Below, in pieces: positions 18,114 through 53,766 of a stretch of 64,000 nucleotides of DNA. This stretch comes from Gemmatimonadota bacterium (GTDB taxonomy: Bacteria > Gemmatimonadota > Gemmatimonadetes > Longimicrobiales > Gaopeijiaceae), in NCBI GenBank assembly GCA_029262115.1, contig JAJCZZ010000082.1, positions 1-64,000 on the forward strand, given 5' to 3'. The number at the start of each line of letters is the position of its first letter. Position 1 is the stretch's first letter. The position numbers and the translations under genes were made by a program. Under the pieces are notes generated by a model. That model was not told the origin of the DNA. It was given only the letters and a program-made list of their open reading frames with translations, and did no database searches.

Positions 18114-19274
18114 GTGCTGCCCGTTCTCTTCGCCTTCCCCTGGATCGGCCTGCTCGCGTTCCTCGCGTTTCGGGTGCGGCTGGCGCGCGCCTTACCAGCG
18201 CCACTCCACCCGGCGAGGGCCCCGTCGGTCACCGTCATCGTTCCGGCGCGCAACGAGGGGCACAACATCGAACGGTGTGTCGAGTCGCTGGCCGCCTACG
18301 ACTACCCCGAGTACGACATCGTGGTCGTCGACGACCGGTCGGAGGACGACACGGCCGAGCGTGCCCGCGCGGCGGACCGTGGTCGAGCGCGATCGATCCG
18401 AGTGCTGGACGGATCGCCCCTCCCTGATGGCTGGCTGGGCAAGCCGTGGGCGTGCTGGCAGGGCGCGAAGGCCGCTCGGAGCGATCTGCTGTTGTTCACG
18501 GATGCGGATACGATGCATCAGCCTCGGCTCCTCGCTCGGGCGGTGGCCGGGATGGAGGAGGACGAGGCCGACCTCCTGACCGTGGCCGGCCGCCAGATCA
18601 TGGGTTCGTTCTGGGAGCGCCTGGTTCAGCCGCAGGTGTTCTTGACCATGATCCTCAGGTTCTCAGATGTGGACGGAGCGCTGCGGCGCGGGAAGTGGCG
18701 AAACGCCATCGCCAACGGCCAGTTCATGCTGTTCACGAGGCGGGCGTATACGGCGTTGGGAGGCCATGAGGCCGTACGCGGCGAGGTCGCCGAGGATCTC
18801 GCCCTGGCGCAGCTCGTCGCGCGCGAAGGCCGAGTCCTGTCGATCCGCCTGGCCGAAGACGACTTCGCGACCCGCATGTATCGCTCTCTCGGCGACCTGA
18901 TCGAGGGGTGGTCGAAGAATCTCCTGATGGGTGGCCTGAAGACGCTTCCCCCGGGTCTCCGACCGTTCATGGCTCCTGCCTCTCTCCTGTCGGGCGTGGC
19001 ACTATGGGTCATGCCTCCAGTGGTCCTGGCCATGTCGTTGATGGGTGTCCTGGGGATGCCGTGGTTGGTGTGGTCGGCCGTCGTGGTCGCGCTGTCACTG
19101 GGTCTGTGGACGTTCGTGACCGTGCGGATGGGTGCGCCCGCCGCCTACGCGCTGCTTTATCCTTTGGGAGCGGCCATGATGGCGTACATCTTCGCGCGCT
19201 CATGGGCCGGTGGGCGCAGGGTGGAGTGGAAGGGGCGGAAGTATTTGTTGGAGGATCTCGAGGAGGGGGCGTGA
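18114..19274 (+). CDS. Membrane glycosyltransferase family 2
   Basis: A GT2 enzyme of 386 residues from GTG 18114. One N-terminal membrane helix precedes the GT-A domain: VPARNEGHNIERCVESL, the nucleotide-binding VVVDDRSEDDT, the metal site FTDADT and an acceptor-side EDLAL. Residues about 295-370 form three C-terminal membrane helices. The segment PDGWLGKPWACWQGAK resembles enzymes of the carotenoid/hopanoid glycosyltransferase kind (CrtQ/HpnB-like), so a lipid acceptor is possible. The stop overlaps the GTG of queG as GTGA. Confidence 0.85.
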   Translation: MLPVLFAFPWIGLLAFLAFRVRLARALPAPLHPARAPSVTVIVPARNEGHNIERCVESLAAYDYPEYDIVVVDDRSEDDTAERARAADRGRARSIRVLDGSPLPDGWLGKPWACWQGAKAARSDLLLFTDADTMHQPRLLARAVAGMEEDEADLLTVAGRQIMGSFWERLVQPQVFLTMILRFSDVDGALRRGKWRNAIANGQFMLFTRRAYTALGGHEAVRGEVAEDLALAQLVAREGRVLSIRLAEDDFATRMYRSLGDLIEGWSKNLLMGGLKTLPPGLRPFMAPASLLSGVALWVMPPVVLAMSLMGVLGMPWLVWSAVVVALSLGLWTFVTVRMGAPAAYALLYPLGAAMMAYIFARSWAGGRRVEWKGRKYLLEDLEEGA

Positions 19275-20590
19275 GCGCCGGCGAGGGGTGGGCTCCGGAG
19301 TTGGCCCATCGGGTCCGCGAGCGAGCGCGATCCGTCGGGATCGACCGAGTGGGCATCGTGTCCGCGGACGCGTCACCCCATCTGGACGCATACCGACGGT
19401 GGATCGGCGCGGACCATCACGGATCAATGGCGTACCTCGCCCGCCCCGATGCCGTCGAGCGACGCGGAGACCTGTCACGGACGGTTCCGGGCGTCCGCTC
19501 GGTCATCGTCGTGGCGGAGCCGTACGATCCTGATGACTCGCCCGGCGTACCCGACGACCCGTCCATGGGAGTGATCGCTCGGTACGCGCGGGGGCGGGAC
19601 TACCACAAGGTGCTGGCGAGGAAGCTACGCGCGATCGCGGGGGTGCTCCCGGACGAGGTGGTAGCCCGGGCGTACGTGGACACCGGCCCGATCCTGGAGC
19701 GGGATCTCGCCCGCCGCGCGGGCCTGGGGTGGCATGGCAAAAACACCATGCTCATCCACCCACGGCGTGGTTCCTACTGCTTCCTCGGCGTGATCCTCGT
19801 GGATGTGGCGCTCCCGGCGGACCCGCCGTTCGAGGCGGACTACTGTGGAAGCTGCCGGGCGTGCCTGGACGCCTGTCCCACTGGCGCCTTGCTGGGTCGT
19901 GACGAATCAGGCGCGCCGATCATGGACGCCAGGCGTTGCATTTCCTACCTGACCATCGAGCACCGGGGCGCCATCCCCCTGGAGCTACGCCCGCTCATGG
20001 GCAACCGGGTGTTCGGGTGCGATATCTGCCAGGAGGTGTGCCCTTGGAATGAGCGGTTCGCGGAAGAGTCGAGCGAGCCGGGGTATGCGGCGCGGAGGCC
20101 GGGGGAGCGGCCGACCGGGGTGGAGGCGGAGGTGGAGGCGGGGGTGGAGGTGGAGTCTGCGCGCGGAGGAGGGGCGTCGACGGGAAAGGACGTTTCCGCG
20201 GAAACGCGCGCCGACGCTTCAGGTGAAACGCGTGGTGTCGCGTATCCGGCGCATCCTGGCACGGAAGCGCCGTCGCTGATCGAGTTGCTCGAAACGGCGC
20301 TGGACGAGGCTGCGTGGGACTCGTTCTCCAAGGGCTCGGCCATTCGCCGGGCCGGCCGCGCGGGCTTCGCGTGTAACGTCTGCGTGGGGCTCGGCAACTG
20401 GGGGTCGCCGGAGGCCGTGCCGGTGCTGTCCGCGGCGCTGTCGGATCCGGAGCCGCTGGTGCGGGCGCACGCGGCCTGGGCGCTCGGTCGGGTGGGCTCG
20501 GTCGAGGCCAGGGCGGCGGTGTCGTCGAGGGCGTCGATCGAGTCGGATGAATCGGTAGCCGAGGAACTGGCAGCGGCCCTGGAGCGCTGA
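19271..20590 (+). CDS. queG: Epoxyqueuosine reductase with an unusual linker insertion
   Basis: QueG is a cobalamin and [4Fe-4S] enzyme that reduces epoxyqueuosine in tRNA to queuosine. GTG 19271 follows AGGAGGGGG and overlaps the upstream stop, giving 439 residues. Two ferredoxin-type clusters are visible (CGSCRACLDACP and CDICQEVCPW), along with the family motif GWHGKNTMLIHP. The C-terminus has HEAT-like repeats (LSDPEPLVRAHAAWALGRVG). Between the clusters and the HEAT part lies a low-complexity insert of about 50 residues rich in Glu/Val/Ala/Gly. Its DNA contains a 16-bp palindrome also found near 29190. The catalytic parts look intact. Confidence 0.92.
   Translation: MSAGEGWAPELAHRVRERARSVGIDRVGIVSADASPHLDAYRRWIGADHHGSMAYLARPDAVERRGDLSRTVPGVRSVIVVAEPYDPDDSPGVPDDPSMGVIARYARGRDYHKVLARKLRAIAGVLPDEVVARAYVDTGPILERDLARRAGLGWHGKNTMLIHPRRGSYCFLGVILVDVALPADPPFEADYCGSCRACLDACPTGALLGRDESGAPIMDARRCISYLTIEHRGAIPLELRPLMGNRVFGCDICQEVCPWNERFAEESSEPGYAARRPGERPTGVEAEVEAGVEVESARGGGASTGKDVSAETRADASGETRGVAYPAHPGTEAPSLIELLETALDEAAWDSFSKGSAIRRAGRAGFACNVCVGLGNWGSPEAVPVLSAALSDPEPLVRAHAAWALGRVGSVEARAAVSSRASIESDESVAEELAAALER
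20179..20206. repeat. Palindromic repeat inside queG
   Basis: CGTTTCCGCGGAAACG (20191-20206) is a perfect 16-bp palindrome within the low-complexity insert of queG. The block 20179-20204 matches 29178-29202 at all but four positions (shared core GGAAAGGACGTTTC, then GC.GAAA). A related partial palindrome, TTCAGGTGAAAC, follows at about 20218. It is translated in frame as part of the QueG linker. Confidence 0.6.
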
Positions 20591-21124: not shown

Positions 21125-21790
21125 GTGCCCGATGCGCGGACCCGACTCGCACGGAGGTCCGTGGAGGTGGCTGAGCCCTCCGGCGTGGATCAGCGGATCC
21201 GGGATCTCGCGGCAGACACGCACGGGGTCGTCACCCGGCGCCAGATGCTGTCGCGTGGAATCCGGGCGCACCAGGTTGACTATCGAGTGAGAACGGCCGC
21301 CCTCCGTCCTCTCTACTGGGGCGTGTATGCGGTGGTGGCGCCGCTCCCCCATAAGGGGCGGTATGCCGCCGCCCTGTTCGCATGCGGAAAGGAAGCCGTG
21401 CTCAGTCACACGAGCGCAGCGATCCAGTGGGGCATGCTGGACGCGCCCGGACCGCTCCGGGACGGGCGTCCATCCGACGTGGTCCACGTGAGCGTCCCCC
21501 GCAACGGATCGCGTCGAGGCTCCGACGGTCTGCGAGTCCACCGGGTCGGGCCGATCCGGGGGCGCGACCGGGCGGTCGTGCGAGGCCTTGCCACGACGGC
21601 GGTGCAGCGAACGCTCTTGGATCTGGCCCGTTCGTTGCGTCGAGGGTCCCCGAGCGAGCGGTCGGCCATGCGAGGGAGCGACTCGGTATGTCCGAGGCCG
21701 ACCTACTGGGTCGGGATCACGTCGCAACCGGAAGCCACGCTTGTCTCGATCGCGCAGGCTCTCGCTCGCGGCGATCCCTGCGCTCGATGA
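21125..21790 (+). pseudogene. Broken AbiEi-type antitoxin-like / DUF559-like gene
   Basis: The N-terminal 160 residues match the AbiEi-family antitoxin layout: winged-helix RIRDLAADTHGVVTRRQML, then LYWGVYAVV, the SHTSAAIQWGM segment and TTAVQRTLLDLARSL. From about 21640 the expected next helix (VPERAVGHARERLGMSEADLLGR) appears in another frame, while the original frame turns into non-family sequence and ends at 21790. The usual C-terminal DUF559-like nuclease-fold domain is absent. A start at GTG 21167, after GGAGG, is more likely than GTG 21125. No partner AbiEii nucleotidyltransferase is seen. The gene appears inactivated by an indel or an assembly error. Confidence 0.6.
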
Positions 21791-26010: not shown

Positions 26011-28554
26011 CTAACGCCCGCCTTCCCCGAGCCGGGCGAGGAGCTGAGGCGCCGTCCGGGGGCGCCCTCGTCCGGACCCGCTCAGAGCCGTGGCGAGGAG
26101 AAAGGCGACGTCCGGGGGGGTCGCCGGCGGGAGCAACGCCGTGTCCGGTCCCTCTCCCCGTCGTATGCGGAGGGCGGTCAAAGCGGACGTGTTGGCGCGG
26201 AAGGGGTGTTGCCCCGACAGGCATTCGAAGAGAACGACCAGCAGGGCCCATACGTCCATCGCCGGCTCTGGATGGGCGCCGTCCAACGCTTCGGGTGAGA
26301 GGTAGGCTAGCGTCCCGACGAGGCCCCCGGTCCGGGTGAGCGCGCCGTCGAGGAACCCGTCGCGGACCCCGGGTCGGGGCGTGAACTCCCGTACGCCGCT
26401 CGCGCCGAACCTGGCGAGCCCGAAGTCCAACAGCTTCGGCGTATCCTCCCGCGTGAACCCCACGTTCGACGGCTTGATGTCCCGGTGGAGGATGCCGGCC
26501 GTGTGCAGCGCGTGGACCGCCGCCGCCAGCTTGCGAGCCATCTCCACTGCCTCCGCAGGGGGGATCGGTCCGGTCCGCGAGATCCGGTCACGCAGCGTTC
26601 CCCCCTCCAGATACTCCACCAGCAGAACCGGGGACCCACGCCAGCTCTCCACCCCGTAGATCGTGGCCAGGTGGGGGTGGGCGACCAGCGCCATGCTTCG
26701 AGCCTCCCGCCGAAGACGTCCCTCCCTTCCCGCGATCTGACCGCGGAGCGTCTTAATGGCCACGGCACGGTCCAGCCATTGGTCCACTCCGCGATACACG
26801 ACCCCCATACCACCCTCCCCGATCCGCTCTTCGACCCTGATCTTCCCGAACAGGAGCAGGGGTACGGAAGCCGGAACCATTGAGCCGCCGCAACGCCCGC
26901 ATCGTCTGCGGTCGGGGGGCCCGAGACCGCCACACTCGGTGCACTCGTGCCCGTTGCGCTCCCCCCCCTCTGGCACATCCGCCTCCCCTCGCCCACCGTC
27001 CCCGCGTGGCATCCGCAGCGCGAGGAGCTGCGCGACGCGTTGAAGCAGATCGACGTCTTCGCCTGTGTAGGGCTCTTCACTGCGTCGCTCGCCCAGCGCC
27101 AGCACCGCGTCGAGCTCCCCGTCCTCCCGGCGGACCGGAACCATCAAGGCGAACGGCGCCGGCCCGGTGACGGGACCGAGGGTCCCATCGCGCGTCCTGT
27201 CCAGGAGGACCACGTCACCCCCCTTCGCCAGAGCCGACCCCAGTGGCCCGTCCAGGTGGACGGACTCGAAGCCTCCCCCGACGGGGCTCAGGCCGCCGTC
27301 GCCGTCGGGGAGGAAGACGCGGACCGCGGTTGGCTGGAGGGCCCGCTCGATCTCCGACTCGACGATGTCGAAGAGGCGGGGAGCGGGGCGTTCCGAAGCG
27401 ATGCGATCCGCCAGGGAACCCAGGACCTCCCTCGCGCGATAGCGCTCCCGGAAGAAGCGCCGGTCGATGGCACGGAGAAGCGTGTGCCGCCAGGCGAACG
27501 CGCCGATCCCGCTGAGTACGAGAGCCGCGACACACAGGCCCATCCACCCCGAGAACAGGGAGGCCACGGTGCGGTCCCGGTTCACGGCCACCATGACCAC
27601 CAGGGCACCGACCGGAGCGAGCAGGAGGACATAGGCACCGTTGCGGGCGAGCAGGTACCAGACCGCCTGCCGGATCACAAGGCCGACGGACAGCGCCCGC
27701 CGACTCACCACCGCCCACGCCACCACCAGGGGCACGGAGAGGGCGCTGGCGTGGGCGACGCCGGTCCAGACCGGAACGACGTGCGATCGAGAGAGCACCT
27801 CCCGCGCCGTCGGCGATACCCCCCACGCGATCATGGAGAGAACGGCCGGTGTGAAGCCCAGCGCCACGCCCCAGAGCAGAAGGGCCGATCGCCGCCGATC
27901 CTGCGTGCCACCAAAGCGGGTCTTCCACGCGCCGTACGCGAGAGCCGGAAGCACCAGGGTCCAGAGCGTCAGCCAGAACAGACTTCCCGCAGCACCGGCC
28001 CCCACACCCTTGAGCGACGCCGCCACGCCTCCGAGCCCCCCGGCGTCCCCGGACGGAACGGGCACAGCCTCGACCAGGAACCAACTGCCGCCGAGGAAGA
28101 GGCTGGCCACACGGAAGGCGCGATCCACCCGCAACGCCGGCCCGAATCGAGTCCGGACCGGGAACCGGTGGACGAATGTCCAGAGAAAATACGGGAGGAA
28201 GGTGACGGGCCAGAGACGCCGGGCGACCTGAACCGCTGCGACCTCCGACCCGACCAGCCCCAGGTTCGCATACGCGCTGGCGGCCAGAAGGAAGACGACG
28301 CCCAGGGGGCGTGCCCTCGGATCTCCGCGGCCGGCCACGAGCAGCCACCCCCCCGCGGCCGTGGGGATGATCAGATACGCCAGCAGGATCGGGACGGGAG
28401 TGAACTGGCTCCCCGTGACGGCGCCCGCCCCGATCCGGGTGGCTGCCAGGCACACCCGGACCAGGGCCAGGGCAGAGAGGCCGCCGACGAGTACCCGCGA
28501 GGCGGAGACCCTCGGATCATCGAGCCTCAGTGGTGTTCCAGATACAGCGTGCAA
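26011..28554 (-). CDS. Membrane sensor kinase: 7TM-like region, GAF, zinc ribbon, serine/threonine kinase
   Basis: An 847-residue integral membrane protein. Residues about 20-345 contain seven or more hydrophobic helices, resembling sensor regions of histidine kinases. A helical connector (RRFFRERYRAREVLGSLADR) leads to a GAF-like domain at about 390-540. Next is a zinc ribbon, C-x2-C then C-x2-C (CTECGG, CGRCGG), at about 565-590, and a Hanks kinase to the end: IGEGGMGVVYRG, VAIKTLRG, HRDIKPSN, DFGLA. All catalytic residues are present. The start TTG 28554 overlaps the upstream gene by 28 bases. The design suggests a signal sensed in the membrane or by GAF driving Ser/Thr phosphorylation. 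Confidence 0.85.
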   Translation of the reverse strand: MHAVSGTPLRLDDPRVSASRVLVGGLSALALVRVCLAATRIGAGAVTGSQFTPVPILLAYLIIPTAAGGWLLVAGRGDPRARPLGVVFLLAASAYANLGLVGSEVAAVQVARRLWPVTFLPYFLWTFVHRFPVRTRFGPALRVDRAFRVASLFLGGSWFLVEAVPVPSGDAGGLGGVAASLKGVGAGAAGSLFWLTLWTLVLPALAYGAWKTRFGGTQDRRRSALLLWGVALGFTPAVLSMIAWGVSPTAREVLSRSHVVPVWTGVAHASALSVPLVVAWAVVSRRALSVGLVIRQAVWYLLARNGAYVLLLAPVGALVVMVAVNRDRTVASLFSGWMGLCVAALVLSGIGAFAWRHTLLRAIDRRFFRERYRAREVLGSLADRIASERPAPRLFDIVESEIERALQPTAVRVFLPDGDGGLSPVGGGFESVHLDGPLGSALAKGGDVVLLDRTRDGTLGPVTGPAPFALMVPVRREDGELDAVLALGERRSEEPYTGEDVDLLQRVAQLLALRMPRGDGGRGEADVPEGGERNGHECTECGGLGPPDRRRCGRCGGSMVPASVPLLLFGKIRVEERIGEGGMGVVYRGVDQWLDRAVAIKTLRGQIAGREGRLRREARSMALVAHPHLATIYGVESWRGSPVLLVEYLEGGTLRDRISRTGPIPPAEAVEMARKLAAAVHALHTAGILHRDIKPSNVGFTREDTPKLLDFGLARFGASGVREFTPRPGVRDGFLDGALTRTGGLVGTLAYLSPEALDGAHPEPAMDVWALLVVLFECLSGQHPFRANTSALTALRIRRGEGPDTALLPPATPPDVAFLLATALSGSGRGRPRTAPQLLARLGEGGR

Positions 28555-28964
28555 AGGGGCTCGGTGAGACGCGCGGTGTCCTCGTCGAAGGATGGGATGT
28601 CTCTCTCGATTCTCTCTCTCTCGTCCGCACTAAGCCGGTGCACGCCGCCGCCGGAGAAGATGGCCGTACAGAGCGCTCGGAGCTCCTCGAAGACCCTTCG
28701 TGTCACGGCTTCGAGTTGATGCGCGTCGACCGGGCCCGCTCCGTGCGCGCTCTCCAGTTCCTCGGCGAGCTCCACGATGGCCACGTAACACACCTCCCTC
28801 AGCACGCCCTCCCACGGTGTGTGGGGACGCTTCTCCAGGAAGGCTACAACGGTCAGCTCCGGAATCTGACGGAGATGCTGCAGCGCGTCCTCCTTCAGCC
28901 CCGTCCGTAACTCCGTGAGCAGCTTCCACGTCGTCTCATGTCGCACCGCGTTGATGTCGGCCAT
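28527..28964 (-). CDS. Small partner protein overlapping the membrane kinase gene
   Basis: I do not recognise this 145-residue soluble, helical protein. ATG 28964 is chosen because a GGAG lies about 10 bases upstream and the longer open frame looks artificial. Features include an aromatic/basic start (VRHETTWKLLTELRTGLKEDA), a CYVAIVELAEELESAHG helix and an acidic C-terminal half. There is no domain hit by eye, no metal motif and no signal peptide. Its end overlaps the kinase start by 28 bases, so it is probably translationally coupled and may be a regulator or substrate of that kinase. Confidence 0.65.
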   Translation of the reverse strand: MADINAVRHETTWKLLTELRTGLKEDALQHLRQIPELTVVAFLEKRPHTPWEGVLREVCYVAIVELAEELESAHGAGPVDAHQLEAVTRRVFEELRALCTAIFSGGGVHRLSADERERIERDIPSFDEDTARLTEPLCTLYLEHH

Positions 28965-29177
28965 CGGCCATGACTCCAGCGAGAGGGATGTCTCGGGGGG
29001 GACGCCGCCAAGGTCCGCGGCGGCGGTAGCTTGCAGACGCCCGGTACCCACCGCAACCCCGCGCACCCGGGCGGACGTCCGCTCGTGCCGACGGGAGCGA
29101 GCTTCGGTGGGGCCCCGTCGCCCCACCGCCCCACCGCCTCTTCGAGCTCCCCCAGCCCCCTCCGGCGGAAACATCCG

Positions 29178-29203
29178 ACTGGAAAGGACGTTTCAGCTGA
29201 AAG
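29178..29203. repeat. Palindromic repeat related to the queG insert
   Basis: GACTGGAAAGGACG followed by TTTCAGCTGAAA (29191-29202, perfect 12-bp palindrome). The block matches 20179-20204 in queG at all but four positions. It lies in the spacer between the kinase-partner gene and the AraC gene, so the element exists both inside a gene and outside one. Confidence 0.6.
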
Positions 29204-29326
29204 TTGCGACCAGGCCATGCCGGTCTGAGGGGAGTTCAAGGATGAGAGGCTGAAATTCGGCGATGCGGTACCGGTATCAGCCGATCCGGAGGGTGTACAT
29301 CGCCGAAGGCGAACGAAGGAGGAAGC

Positions 29327-29392
29327 ATACCCGAGCGGGAATTCGACGACGAGTACGCCGCCTACAAGCGTTCGGTACGGCGGTGGCTGTGA
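29327..29392 (+). pseudogene. C-terminal remnant of a small membrane methyltransferase-like gene
   Basis: The in-frame string IPEREFDDEYAAYKRSVRRWL then TGA (29390-29392) has the layout of the C-terminus of isoprenylcysteine methyltransferase-like proteins (EREF.DEY..Y...V.RW). Nothing upstream in this frame resembles the rest of that family. It overlaps the end of the antisense AraC gene. It is most likely a leftover gene end; the assignment from 20 residues is weak. Confidence 0.35.
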
Positions 29393-30180
29393 GGCGATGG
29401 GAAGCCACCGTGGTAGCGTCCCGGCGTCACGCCGAACATCTCCTTGAAGCGCGCGATGAAGGCGCTCGTGCTTCCGTAGCCCACGCGAAGCCCCACGGTG
29501 GTGACGGACCCGCCCTCCGCCAACAGTTCCACGGCTCGTAGGAGTCGGAGGCGTCGCCGCCAGCGCCCGACCGTCAGCCCCGTCTCGGCCATGAAGATCC
29601 GTTCCAGCGTCCGACGGCTCGCCCCCGCATCCCGGGCCAGCGCATCCACCCCGGCGTCGTCTCCCGGGCGGTCCAGGAGCCGTCGCGCAACCTGAAGCCC
29701 CCTCGGATCTTTCGGCAGCGACAGCCCGACCACCGCCCGGCGCTCCCGACTGAGGAGGTCGCGCATCATCGCGAGACACAGCGACTCATGGTCGTCGGCA
29801 CGACGGAGCCGCCCCAGGCGCACGGCGTGGAGGATCAGCTCCCTCAGGAGGGGGGACACCTCGATGGCATGACAGCCGGGTCCCAGGGGTGTCACTTCTC
29901 CGGGGTGGAAGTAGAGGGTGCGCAGCTCGACCCGTCCGGTTGTGGCGAGGTCGTGCTCCGTGCCGGAGGGGACCCACAGGGCGCGCTGGGGAGGGATCAG
30001 CCAGGCGCCTCCGTCCGCGAAGACGCGCATCACGCCGGATGCGGCGAAGATGAGCTGGTCCCAGTCGTGGGTGTGCACGCCCACCGCGTACCCGGGCGGA
30101 TAGGTGAATCCGAAGCAGCGTGCGAGGAGATCCGCCTCTGGTCGGTGTGCTTCTGCCTCGATGTGTCGGATTGACGGCAT
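29362..30180 (-). CDS. AraC family transcriptional regulator
   Basis: A 272-residue regulator starting at ATG 30180. The N-terminal cupin-type sensing domain is visible (YPPGYAVGVHTHDWDQLIFAASG, WLIPPQRALWVPSGTEHDL). The C-terminal double helix-turn-helix follows: DALARDAGASRRTLERIF, LRLLRAVELLAEG and VGYGSTSAFIARFKEMFGVTPGRY. Family members bind a small ligand in the cupin and regulate nearby genes. It diverges from the VOC/lipoprotein pair across a 93-base gap holding the palindromes CAATATTG (30188-30195) and TTGCGCAA (30193-30200). Confidence 0.9.
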   Translation of the reverse strand: MPSIRHIEAEAHRPEADLLARCFGFTYPPGYAVGVHTHDWDQLIFAASGVMRVFADGGAWLIPPQRALWVPSGTEHDLATTGRVELRTLYFHPGEVTPLGPGCHAIEVSPLLRELILHAVRLGRLRRADDHESLCLAMMRDLLSRERRAVVGLSLPKDPRGLQVARRLLDRPGDDAGVDALARDAGASRRTLERIFMAETGLTVGRWRRRLRLLRAVELLAEGGSVTTVGLRVGYGSTSAFIARFKEMFGVTPGRYHGGFPSPHSHRRTERL

Positions 30181-30273
30181 AATCTGACAATATTGCGCAA
30201 GCACGGCGAAGGTCTCAAGAGCTATCTTCGCCCCGGAGACCCGTTCCGCCCCATCTGCCCAGGTGCCGAGACC

Positions 30274-30657
30274 ATGGCCAACAACATCGCCTTCTTCGCC
30301 ATCCACGCCGATGACGTCCAGAGGGCCCGCCGATTCTACGAGCGGGTGTTCGACTGGCGATTCGAGGCGTGGGGGCCACCGGATTTCTACCTCATCACCA
30401 CCGGCTCGGGGGAGGACAGTCAGGTTCAAGGGGCGCTTCAGGGTCGACTGGAGCCCCTCGAAGGAAGGGGGATGCGCGGCTACGAGTGCAGCATCGCCGT
30501 GGACTCCGTCGACGAGACGGCGCACCGGATCGAGGAGCACGGAGGAACCATCACCCTGGAGAAGTCGGTCATCCCGGGCGTGGGCTGGCTGGTCAAGTTC
30601 CGGGACCCGGAGGGGAACGAGGCGGCGGCGGTGCGCTATGATCGGGAGGCCGAGTGA
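30274..30657 (+). CDS. VOC family (glyoxalase/bleomycin resistance-like) protein
   Basis: A single vicinal-oxygen-chelate domain of 127 residues. Two beta-alpha-beta-beta-beta units are readable: FFAIHADDVQRARRFYERVFDW, then GYECSIAVDSVDETAHRIEEHGGTI and GVGWLVKFRDPEGNEAAAVRYD. Metal-site positions fit His in FFAIHAD and Glu in PEGNEAA. Substrate and reaction cannot be given. The start follows the AraC divergent promoter region. Its stop overlaps the GTG of the next gene as GTGA. Confidence 0.85.
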   Translation: MANNIAFFAIHADDVQRARRFYERVFDWRFEAWGPPDFYLITTGSGEDSQVQGALQGRLEPLEGRGMRGYECSIAVDSVDETAHRIEEHGGTITLEKSVIPGVGWLVKFRDPEGNEAAAVRYDREAE

Positions 30658-51756: not shown

Positions 51757-53766
51757 GTGGCCTTCTCGTCCCGTCGAGCCATCCGCGCCGCGGTCGTCGC
51801 GGCATGCGCGATCTCGGCCTCGTGCGACGAGGTCGTCGGTCCGAAGGATGATGACGATCCCACGACGACCTGCCTGGCAAACGGCACTCCTCTCCAGGGT
51901 GACCTGGCCGGCGACACCCTGACGGCCGCAGGCGGCCCGTACGTCATCCGAGATTCGGCCATGGTTCGAGGGGGCGCGTGGCTGCGTGTGCAGGAAGGCG
52001 TAACAATCTGCCTGCATCCGCCTGCGTCTATCATGCTGGACGGAAGATTGGAGGCGTTCGGCACGGCGGAGGCGCCCATCACCATAGAGCGCGAACGCCC
52101 TGACCCGTCCTACCTGATCCGACCGGTCGGATCAGGCTTCGTGGCCGAGGTCCGTCTGCGACATGTCCGCATCCTGGGCGGCGGCATCTTCGCGCGCGGG
52201 GGTTCGCTCAGTACCGAGGACGTTACGATCGAGGAGGCACCCGGGGGCGGCATCGCCACGGACCGCGGACGCCTCGTCCGAACGGTGCTCTCATCCACGT
52301 GTGACGAAGCGTGCGCCTCGGAGGGAGCACGTGGTGCGCTGCGATACAGCCGGTTCTCGGGGCAGTCGGGTCTGACCCTCGAGGACGTTACGATCCGCGA
52401 TGCGCAAGGCGATGGCCTGTCGGTCGGCGCCTTACCTACGGATGCACCTCCCCTCTCGGTCGACGGGCTCGTGCTTGAGGATGTGTCCGGCCACGGCGTG
52501 ACGTTCGAGCACTACGCGCCCGACCGCCTGCTCCGTCTCACACGTGCCGGGTCCATCCGTTTCCGAAACGTCGGAGGCGACCTGATCCGAGGTCCCGCGC
52601 GTGCCGCCGCACTCCTGGCAACTCCGGGCTTCGAGGGACCGGTCGGCGAGCCGGCTACCGTATCGCTGGTAGGCGCCGTGCAGGGGAAGCCGCTCGAGCT
52701 CGGCCCGGGTCCCCTGTGGCGGCTCCTCGACGTCACTGGCGTGGACACGCTCGTACTTCGGCCCGGAGCGGAAGTCGAGGGTCCGACCGGAGACTCCACT
52801 GCCATTCGGGTCCTTCGGGCGAAGGGGACGGAGGCCGATCCAGTGCGGTTGAGCGGAAGTGGTCACACGTTCAAGGTCTCAGAAATTTGGGGGAACGAGG
52901 GCCTCTCCCACGTGCACGTAGCGGGCGCAACCGTGCGGATCGACGCTGACCAGGCGCATGTCGCCTCGTCGACGTTCCTTGGCGCCGGTCCACTGGTGCT
53001 GTCCGGCGACTTTCCCACCGTTGCCGGCGTGGTGTTCGAGGGCGCCACGTCCACTACTTTGCGACTCGACGGGCTGGGGGCGCGGGTCCAAGGCTGCTCG
53101 GTATCGAACTCCAGTGGCGATGGCGTGGTGGTCCGGGGGGCGCACGCGAGCATCCACCAGTGCAATCTGGTCGACAACGCTGGTGCCGGGGTGGCGTCGG
53201 AAGCCCGTGGATTCTTGGATGCTCGCCGAGACTGGTGGGGTGCCGCGGGTGGAGCTGGAGCAGTGGGGGCGGACGAGGCACGCGGTGGCGAGCTCGACCG
53301 CCTCCACGGGGGGCTGCCGGTCTCATGCGCGGACCTCTGGGGTCGGTCGGCCACGGATCTGTTCTTTTTGTGCGGGAACCGGCTGTATCGTTGGAGTGGG
53401 GAGACCGCCGAAGAGATCGGCGCTTCCCGTCCTGGTGGGCTCGAGCACGGCGTATGGGCGGGGCCGGAACGGGTGTGGTGGGTGGGCTCCGAGGGTTCGA
53501 TTTGCCGTTGGGACGGCTCCGCCGTCGAGGCGTTGGGGGGTGCGCCTCCGGTGACCCTCCTCGACGTGCACGGGACCTCGAACGACGACGTCTACATTGT
53601 CGGCCGAGGCGACGCGCTTCTGCACTGGGACGGGCGCTTCCTCCGGCCGCTGTGGACCCCAGGGGATGGGGACATCACGCATGTTTGGGTGGTGGAGGGC
53701 CATCTGTACCTCCTCCGTGAGAGCGGGGAGATTCTGGTGGGGAGCCCTCTGGATCGAGGACCTTGA
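51757..53766 (+). CDS. Parallel beta-helix lipoprotein with C-terminal beta-propeller-like repeats
   Basis: A surface or periplasmic lipoprotein of about 669 residues from GTG 51757; the signal ends in a lipobox-like ISASC. The first 520 residues show repeated beta-helix turns (LRHVRILGGGIFARGGSL, LTLEDVTIRDAQGDGLSVG, VQGCSVSNSSGDGVVVRG and a closing SIHQCNLVDNAGAGV) of the NosD/pectate-lyase-like right-handed kind. The last 150 residues are short W/L-containing repeats (DLWGRSATDLFFLCGNRLYRW, GVWAGPERVWWVGSEGSI) like a small propeller. No catalytic residues are evident. Start uncertain: no clear ribosome site. Confidence 0.7.
   Translation: MAFSSRRAIRAAVVAACAISASCDEVVGPKDDDDPTTTCLANGTPLQGDLAGDTLTAAGGPYVIRDSAMVRGGAWLRVQEGVTICLHPPASIMLDGRLEAFGTAEAPITIERERPDPSYLIRPVGSGFVAEVRLRHVRILGGGIFARGGSLSTEDVTIEEAPGGGIATDRGRLVRTVLSSTCDEACASEGARGALRYSRFSGQSGLTLEDVTIRDAQGDGLSVGALPTDAPPLSVDGLVLEDVSGHGVTFEHYAPDRLLRLTRAGSIRFRNVGGDLIRGPARAAALLATPGFEGPVGEPATVSLVGAVQGKPLELGPGPLWRLLDVTGVDTLVLRPGAEVEGPTGDSTAIRVLRAKGTEADPVRLSGSGHTFKVSEIWGNEGLSHVHVAGATVRIDADQAHVASSTFLGAGPLVLSGDFPTVAGVVFEGATSTTLRLDGLGARVQGCSVSNSSGDGVVVRGAHASIHQCNLVDNAGAGVASEARGFLDARRDWWGAAGGAGAVGADEARGGELDRLHGGLPVSCADLWGRSATDLFFLCGNRLYRWSGETAEEIGASRPGGLEHGVWAGPERVWWVGSEGSICRWDGSAVEALGGAPPVTLLDVHGTSNDDVYIVGRGDALLHWDGRFLRPLWTPGDGDITHVWVVEGHLYLLRESGEILVGSPLDRGP

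Follow-up and report, generated by a model that had tools for sequence, protein, structure and literature searches.

A dispersed palindromic dyad in a Gemmatimonadota family, carried within queG, as a putative site for a dimeric DNA-binding protein

A palindrome inside the coding sequence of queG, found in a 64,000-nucleotide stretch of the genome of a Gemmatimonadota bacterium (referred to here as the window), belongs to a family of 18-bp dyads with consensus RCGTTNCMGCKGNAACGY. The dyad is dispersed in the genomes of relatives, its half-sites covary, its boundary is sharp, and in galactokinase genes it is constrained at the nucleotide level. We propose, with a probability of roughly one half, that a putative homodimeric protein binds the dyad sequence-specifically and so marks many chromosomal places, and that the copy in queG came by way of an exchange of the 3′ part of the gene.

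Results

The palindrome and the shared block in the window

The queG gene (19271–20590, plus strand) encodes tRNA epoxyqueuosine(34) reductase, with HEAT repeats in its C-terminal part (TIGR00276, PF08331, PF13484 and PF13646; the TIGR00276 match scores 324 bits against a cut-off of 200). It contains the 18-bp dyad ACGTTTCCGCGGAAACGC at 20190–20207 (no strand assigned), which matches the consensus with 0 mismatches and whose inner 16 bp, CGTTTCCGCGGAAACG at 20191–20206, form a perfect palindrome. A palindromic element read in frame within the protein, as the preliminary description had it, is therefore indeed present, and is translated as DVSAET. The length of this palindrome alone is unremarkable, because there are six perfect palindromes of at least 16 bp in the window, including the one in queG. 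The longest in the window is a perfect 24-bp palindrome, CCTGATCCGACCGGTCGGATCAGG, at 52113–52136. A degenerate second dyad, CGCTTCAGGTGAAACG (20215–20230, no strand assigned), lies 24 nt downstream of the queG dyad. Downstream of queG itself there is an AbiEi_4-like gene (21125–21790), whose score of 22.7 bits is under the cut-off of 25.

The near-identical block that had been noted outside a gene at 29.2 kb is also real: a 27-nt block in queG (20178–20204, plus strand) recurs at 29176–29202 (plus strand) with identity at 24 of 27 positions. The second copy is intergenic, between an AraC-family gene (29365–30540, minus strand) and an open reading frame without a family match (28530–29174, minus strand). 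In the QueG reading frame all three differences between the copies are at third positions of codons, and two of the three are palindrome partners (C/G to A/T). The palindrome at 29.2 kb is 12 bp long, TTTCAGCTGAAA. Its dyad, ACGTTTCAGCTGAAAGTT at 29188–29205, agrees with the consensus at 16 of 18 positions when compared by eye. The two copies also have in common a non-palindromic left flank, CGACNGGAAAG.

With up to three mismatches allowed, the 27-nt form CGACNGGAAAGGACGTTTCNGCNGAAA occurs only at these two sites in the 5.45-Mb genome, and none of 100 shuffled versions of the window matched a shorter form of it. The 14-mer GGAAAGGACGTTTC (20183–20196 and 29181–29194) likewise has its sole sites there, and its reversed control has none; we estimate that a single 14-mer shared within 64 kb is what chance would give. 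The preliminary description had held that an absence of further copies would count against a repeated element; this nearly applies to the genome itself, with its two copies, whereas relatives carry a dispersed dyad, as described below. The evidence from the 5.45-Mb genome alone would make a weak case.

The copies were also folded as RNA, and the window copies proved ordinary, with no excess structure (z = 0.20, −1.32 and −0.60 in three folds). A known RNA element was rejected on the basis of this folding and of 0 Rfam matches in the window.

The dyad family in relatives

Completing the 29.2-kb copy to a full palindrome gives the pattern GACGTTTCAGCTGAAACGTC. With up to three mismatches allowed, this pattern occurs in 60 of the 121 genomes available for the family, at 1–21 copies per genome, compared to 1 of 121 for its reversed control. 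Across the phylum, a 16-mer with at most one mismatch was found in 58 of 395 genomes, 43 of which belong to the same family by a count made by eye. The dyad is dispersed within its carriers in the family.

Eight genomes were searched with the pattern CGTTNCNGCNGNAACG, in which four positions are free. It matched at 51 places in seven of them, and 28 of these places are perfect palindromes. The inner free pair is complementary at 43 of the 51 places (5000 shuffles: mean 25.7, maximum 38) and the outer free pair at 34 (mean 21.4, maximum 31). We take the 51-site set as the unbiased figure, because the excess of perfect palindromes in our set of 91 non-redundant sites, and that in the codon-usage analysis, partly follows from the search patterns themselves. 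The arms vary by lineage (TTTC..GAAA, TTAC..GTAA and TTCC..GGAA), with the half-sites changing together. The inner pair would form the loop of any RNA hairpin, and its covariation therefore points to double-stranded DNA as the functional form. There is no conservation of the flanks outside the 18-bp dyad among the 91 sites, making the boundary a sharp one; the inner letters of the 91-site logo are partly fixed by the search method.

In one genus (g3) the presence of the dyad is divided: 19 of 23 genomes have 6–21 sites, and the other four (G019, G026, G029 and G032) have none. Two of the dyad-free genomes (G026 and G029) also lack the galactokinase site. This split suggests one trans-acting factor, gained or lost.

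DUF222-HNH genes hold 8 of 46 examined sites, which is an over-representation. These genes were considered as the source or owner of the dyad on account of their frequent sites, but a genome without a match to the family (G066) has four exact perfect sites. In another genome, G048, the dyads occur as pairs and triplets at 41–42 bp (L304, L306 and L307), and the spacer between them, similar to cggggcgccgaccggg, is conserved in part. One group of dyads in this genome adjoins an apparent tRNA gene, recognized by eye and unscanned. Two other kinds of palindrome were seen in G035: one of 30 bp, CCCTTCGGCGCCCCGCGGGGCGCCGAAGGG, which is also dispersed and recurs exactly at four places in the 760 kb sampled (L447:1724, L457:8973, L442:4054 and L445:13045), and operator-like palindromes of the type TGTGAAACGTTTCACA at two places (L447:15476 and L465:9650).

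Sites within conserved genes

Three sets of orthologues indicate how sites within genes came about. In galactokinase, 25 loci were examined from a larger set of galK rows, and the exact 12-bp core is present in 22 of them, in two genera, where it is read as FQLK. The codons of the dyad are frozen among the 23 sequences that could be parsed and aligned (the two left out being one with the core and one without): phenylalanine is TTT in 23/23, lysine is AAA in 22/22, and arginine is CGT in 22/23. Synonymous sites neighbouring the dyad vary, in contrast to the dyad codons, and the constraint is therefore on the DNA and not on the peptide. Orthologues with and without the palindrome are unchanged in length.

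In a multihaem cytochrome, 7 of 24 orthologues contain the exact 12-bp core. Over the stretch compared, the 11 parsed orthologues are all 51 residues long, whether they have the palindrome or not (for example GTTTCAGCTGAAACG versus ATCGCCGCGGAGACG). In both the galactokinase and the cytochrome sets, the palindrome thus arose in place, without insertion. The third set is a lipoprotein-like protein of metallo-β-lactamase fold, in which 6 of 21 orthologues have the exact core. In one genus the dyad is translated here to VSAET and the length is the same with and without it; the other genus has a shorter region, which may reflect an insertion or a deletion.

The QueG linker and a probable swap of the queG 3′ end

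The predicted structure of QueG has a mean pLDDT of 84.7, and the palindrome sits in its only long low-confidence stretch, residues 284–322 (pLDDT <50 at residues 284–316 and 318–322). This disordered linker (approximately residues 284–322; 20120–20236, plus strand; defined by pLDDT and by the linkers of relatives) varies in both length and sequence among relatives. Perfect palindromes of at least 16 bp occur in 7 of 89 parsed queG linkers, from relatives and the genome itself, compared to 2 of 846 control windows from the same loci; regular-expression parsing shortened some of the linkers and left L122 unparsed, and one 16-bp palindrome (CGGTTCAGCTGAACCG), in the linker of G076 that was cut short, is not among the seven.

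The linker palindromes are specific to lineages, and one of the analyses behind this covered 80 parsed linkers and left 10 unparsed: CGTTTCCGCGGAAACG is found in the genome studied here, CGGTCCCGCGGGACCG in G065 and G086, and CGCCCGATTCCGCGGAATCGGGCG in G078 and G079, and G066 has the form ACGTTCCAGCTGAAACGT. The queG copy of G048, CGTTACCGCGGTAACG, read as VTAVT, is also the dispersed variant that G048 carries most often (8 of 17 sites). In the sister species (G001) the corresponding sequence is GACGTTTCAGCGGAGACG, in which the palindrome is broken and the peptide DVSAET is kept.

A comparison of QueG lengths in relatives with and without the linker sequence had been suggested as a check on insertion. 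It is confounded by the history of the gene, because the 3′ part of queG, linker included, appears to have been exchanged between lineages. In a tree of the N-terminal part the genome studied here groups with its sister species (support 97/94); in a tree of the C-terminal part it groups with G066 (92/80), and a branch with support of 100/96 sets the sister species apart. These trees are short and moderately supported, and one of 33 rows (G048) was dropped from the C-terminal tree as too short. In G078 the gene is clearly chimeric: as far as the linker it is 95% identical to that of G080, and beyond this it resembles that of G079.

Truncated 3′ fragments of queG are present in G073, G075, G078, G080 and G086, the five genomes whose extra partial matches were followed. 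Fragments with a visible start begin exactly at the CAGGA of the QEVCP codons, and the six that were aligned have in common an unrelated left arm resembling AACGGGTnAGTCGG; some fragments are touched by contig edges. The fragments are L467–L473 and L476, in some cases two per contig, and a HepT-like gene adjoins that of L467. The inferred recombination junction in our window, placed from the fragment starts in relatives, is CAGGAGG at 20030–20036 (plus strand; QueG ..CDIC|QEVCP). No displaced queG fragment or left arm was found next to CAGGA in the 64-kb window, and no recombinase was found for the fragments of relatives.

Given the conflict between the trees and the common CAGGA start of the truncated fragments, a simple insertion is unlikely to account for the difference in QueG length between the genome and its sister species. 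Comparison of these sequences suggests that queG is a target of integration or recombination, and that its 3′ end was probably swapped by recombination at the CAGGA junction. The simplest reading would be a 3′ exchange by way of an integrating element or of recombination with stored fragments.

Discussion

We favour a binding site as the explanation of the dyad, because its half-sites covary, in-gene copies form with no change in length, the galactokinase nucleotides are frozen, and none of 11 genomes has a RAYT-type transposase. Constraint at the nucleotide level and two-fold symmetry are together the general mark of a site for a dimeric protein, and both are found here. A putative dimeric protein would bind RCGTTNCMGCKGNAACGY at many places, inside and outside genes, and we infer that it acts on chromosome structure rather than at one promoter. 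The site in queG would be tolerated because the linker is disordered. Its present form is probably owed to the replacement of the 3′ part of the gene (linker and HEAT repeats) by recombination at CAGGA, in which case the copy would not have been newly inserted, in frame, into a linker that was already there.

Several observations weaken the proposal of a binding site. The genome itself has two copies, one of them imperfect; the doublet and triplet arrays of G048, with their shared spacer, look like a repeated element; a binding site alone leaves the common left flank CGACNGGAAAG of the window copies unexplained; and we can offer no good reason for the over-representation of sites in DUF222-HNH genes.

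A narrower form of the binding-site explanation is that the dyad is a chromosome-marking site of the parS or NBS type, recognized by a ParB- or Noc-like protein and altered at its centre, which we regard as possible and rather unlikely. The resemblance is in the architecture: these are perfect dyads of 14–16 bp in several to many copies, with half-sites in the same order, GTTTC..GAAAC, and a variable fourth base. The half-site of the dyad, CGTTTCM(G), may be compared with the consensus sequences given in the relevant passages of PMC7383237, TGTTTCAC-GTGAAACA for parS and TATTTCCC-GGGAAATA for NBS; of the eight bases in the half-site, two depart from parS and three from NBS. The centre is AGCT or CGCG, versus ACGT in parS and CCGG in NBS, and the outer base of the dyad is C. 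The dyad thus fails the parS core, GTTTCAC-GTGAAAC; no exact canonical core was found in G034, G035 or the genome studied here, and this absence of an exact GTTTCACGTGAAAC from all three is in keeping with an altered site, as is the presence in a dyad-free relative (G045) of two canonical parS sites beside parA, parB and gidA (genes named by eye).

The location of the sites bears on the same question. A parS site is expected in the origin domain. The dyad is dispersed over two single-contig genomes, with 8 and 10 exact copies of GTTTCAGCTGAAAC, much like NBS, described in PMC4331003 as scattered round the chromosome. No clustering of the dyad near an origin could be shown: in G035, none of the origin genes looked for lies in the region of 600–1040 kb that holds the galactokinase site, and the GC skew (18 sampled 20-kb stretches) was too noisy to use. 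In G045, the stretches sampled did not include the origin genes.

The other explanation of comparable, low probability is a mobile palindrome of the REP or RPE (Rickettsia palindromic element) kind, inserted at random and tolerated in frame, which is the origin that the preliminary description had proposed. Intragenic REPs and RPEs are known, and passages of PMC3733652 describe short dispersed palindromes, both RPEs and CGTC/GTAG REPs, some of them in frame within proteins; two Xanthomonas species have REPs at about the same site of recB, which is reminiscent of the way the queG linker has been used repeatedly. Such an origin would account for the dispersal of copies in both intergenic and coding DNA, the doublets and triplets of G048 with their conserved spacer, the copies read in frame within variable loops of both QueG and DUF222-HNH proteins, and the left flank common to the window copies. 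The many copies per genome typical of RPEs are seen in relatives and not in our genome, with its two places.

Against insertion, galactokinase and cytochrome orthologues are equal in length with and without the dyad, the galactokinase synonymous sites are frozen, and RNA folding shows no excess. GTAG/CGTC REPs have a one-sided unpaired tag and a stem with a 4–5-nt loop, unlike the dyad, which is symmetric and loopless and has neither a one-sided tag nor a conserved flank in 91 sites. The Y1 transposase that drives GTAG REPs (PF01797) was found in 0 of 11 genomes, and the control search was positive in 5 of 14 reference genomes; a RAYT-driven REP was rejected for this reason. The proposed Rickettsia-like insertion is thus unsupported.

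That conservation of the peptide VSAET makes the DNA palindromic by an accident of the code is very improbable, and was rejected as a general cause though it may explain single copies: VSAET and VTAVT do encode near-palindromes and a V[SC]xET[SA]RRL motif is native to DUF222-HNH proteins, but intergenic copies exist, the same DNA is read as FQLK in galactokinase and VTAVT in the QueG of G048, and a perfect 14-bp palindrome has p = 0.09 for VSAET (codon usage of seven window genes) where the queG spelling has p = 0.0012 given VSAET, in an analysis whose excess is in part a product of the search patterns.

The proposed exchange in queG has parallels in genomic islands whose attachment sites are tRNA-modification genes, such as trmE for SGI1, and dusA, according to PMC8409611; as with those islands, the end of the gene appears to have been replaced while fragments remain. 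It differs from trmE and dusA in that the junction is in the middle of the gene and no recombinase was identified, and the exchange is deduced from fragments and trees. Among the matches listed for such islands in openly licensed PMC papers queG is unmentioned. Four spellings of the dyad were found in none of the openly licensed PMC papers searched, and the matches listed there for palindromic repeats with Gemmatimonadetes or Gemmatimonadota held nothing on this phylum.

Combining the binding site with the exchange gives a fuller picture, which we offer tentatively and think rather unlikely: a previously undescribed system of this Gemmatimonadota family, in which a ParB/Noc-like or other dimeric protein reads CGTTTCMGCKGAAACG at some 5–20 places. 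Sites within genes would evolve by substitution and be gained or lost with the protein, and the variants of the arms would be mirrored in the linker of queG, the 3′ half of which would be swapped at CAGGA.

Short intragenic palindromes are usually interpreted as inserted selfish DNA. Here, an origin in place in two sets of orthologues, and maintenance at the nucleotide level in one of them, point instead to a putative DNA-binding protein of a little-studied phylum. One probe could fish out the putative dyad-binding protein, and the bimodal presence of the dyad within one genus makes the search for a partner gene straightforward. The exchange of the 3′ end of queG, if true, would add a tRNA-modification gene to the targets of integration.
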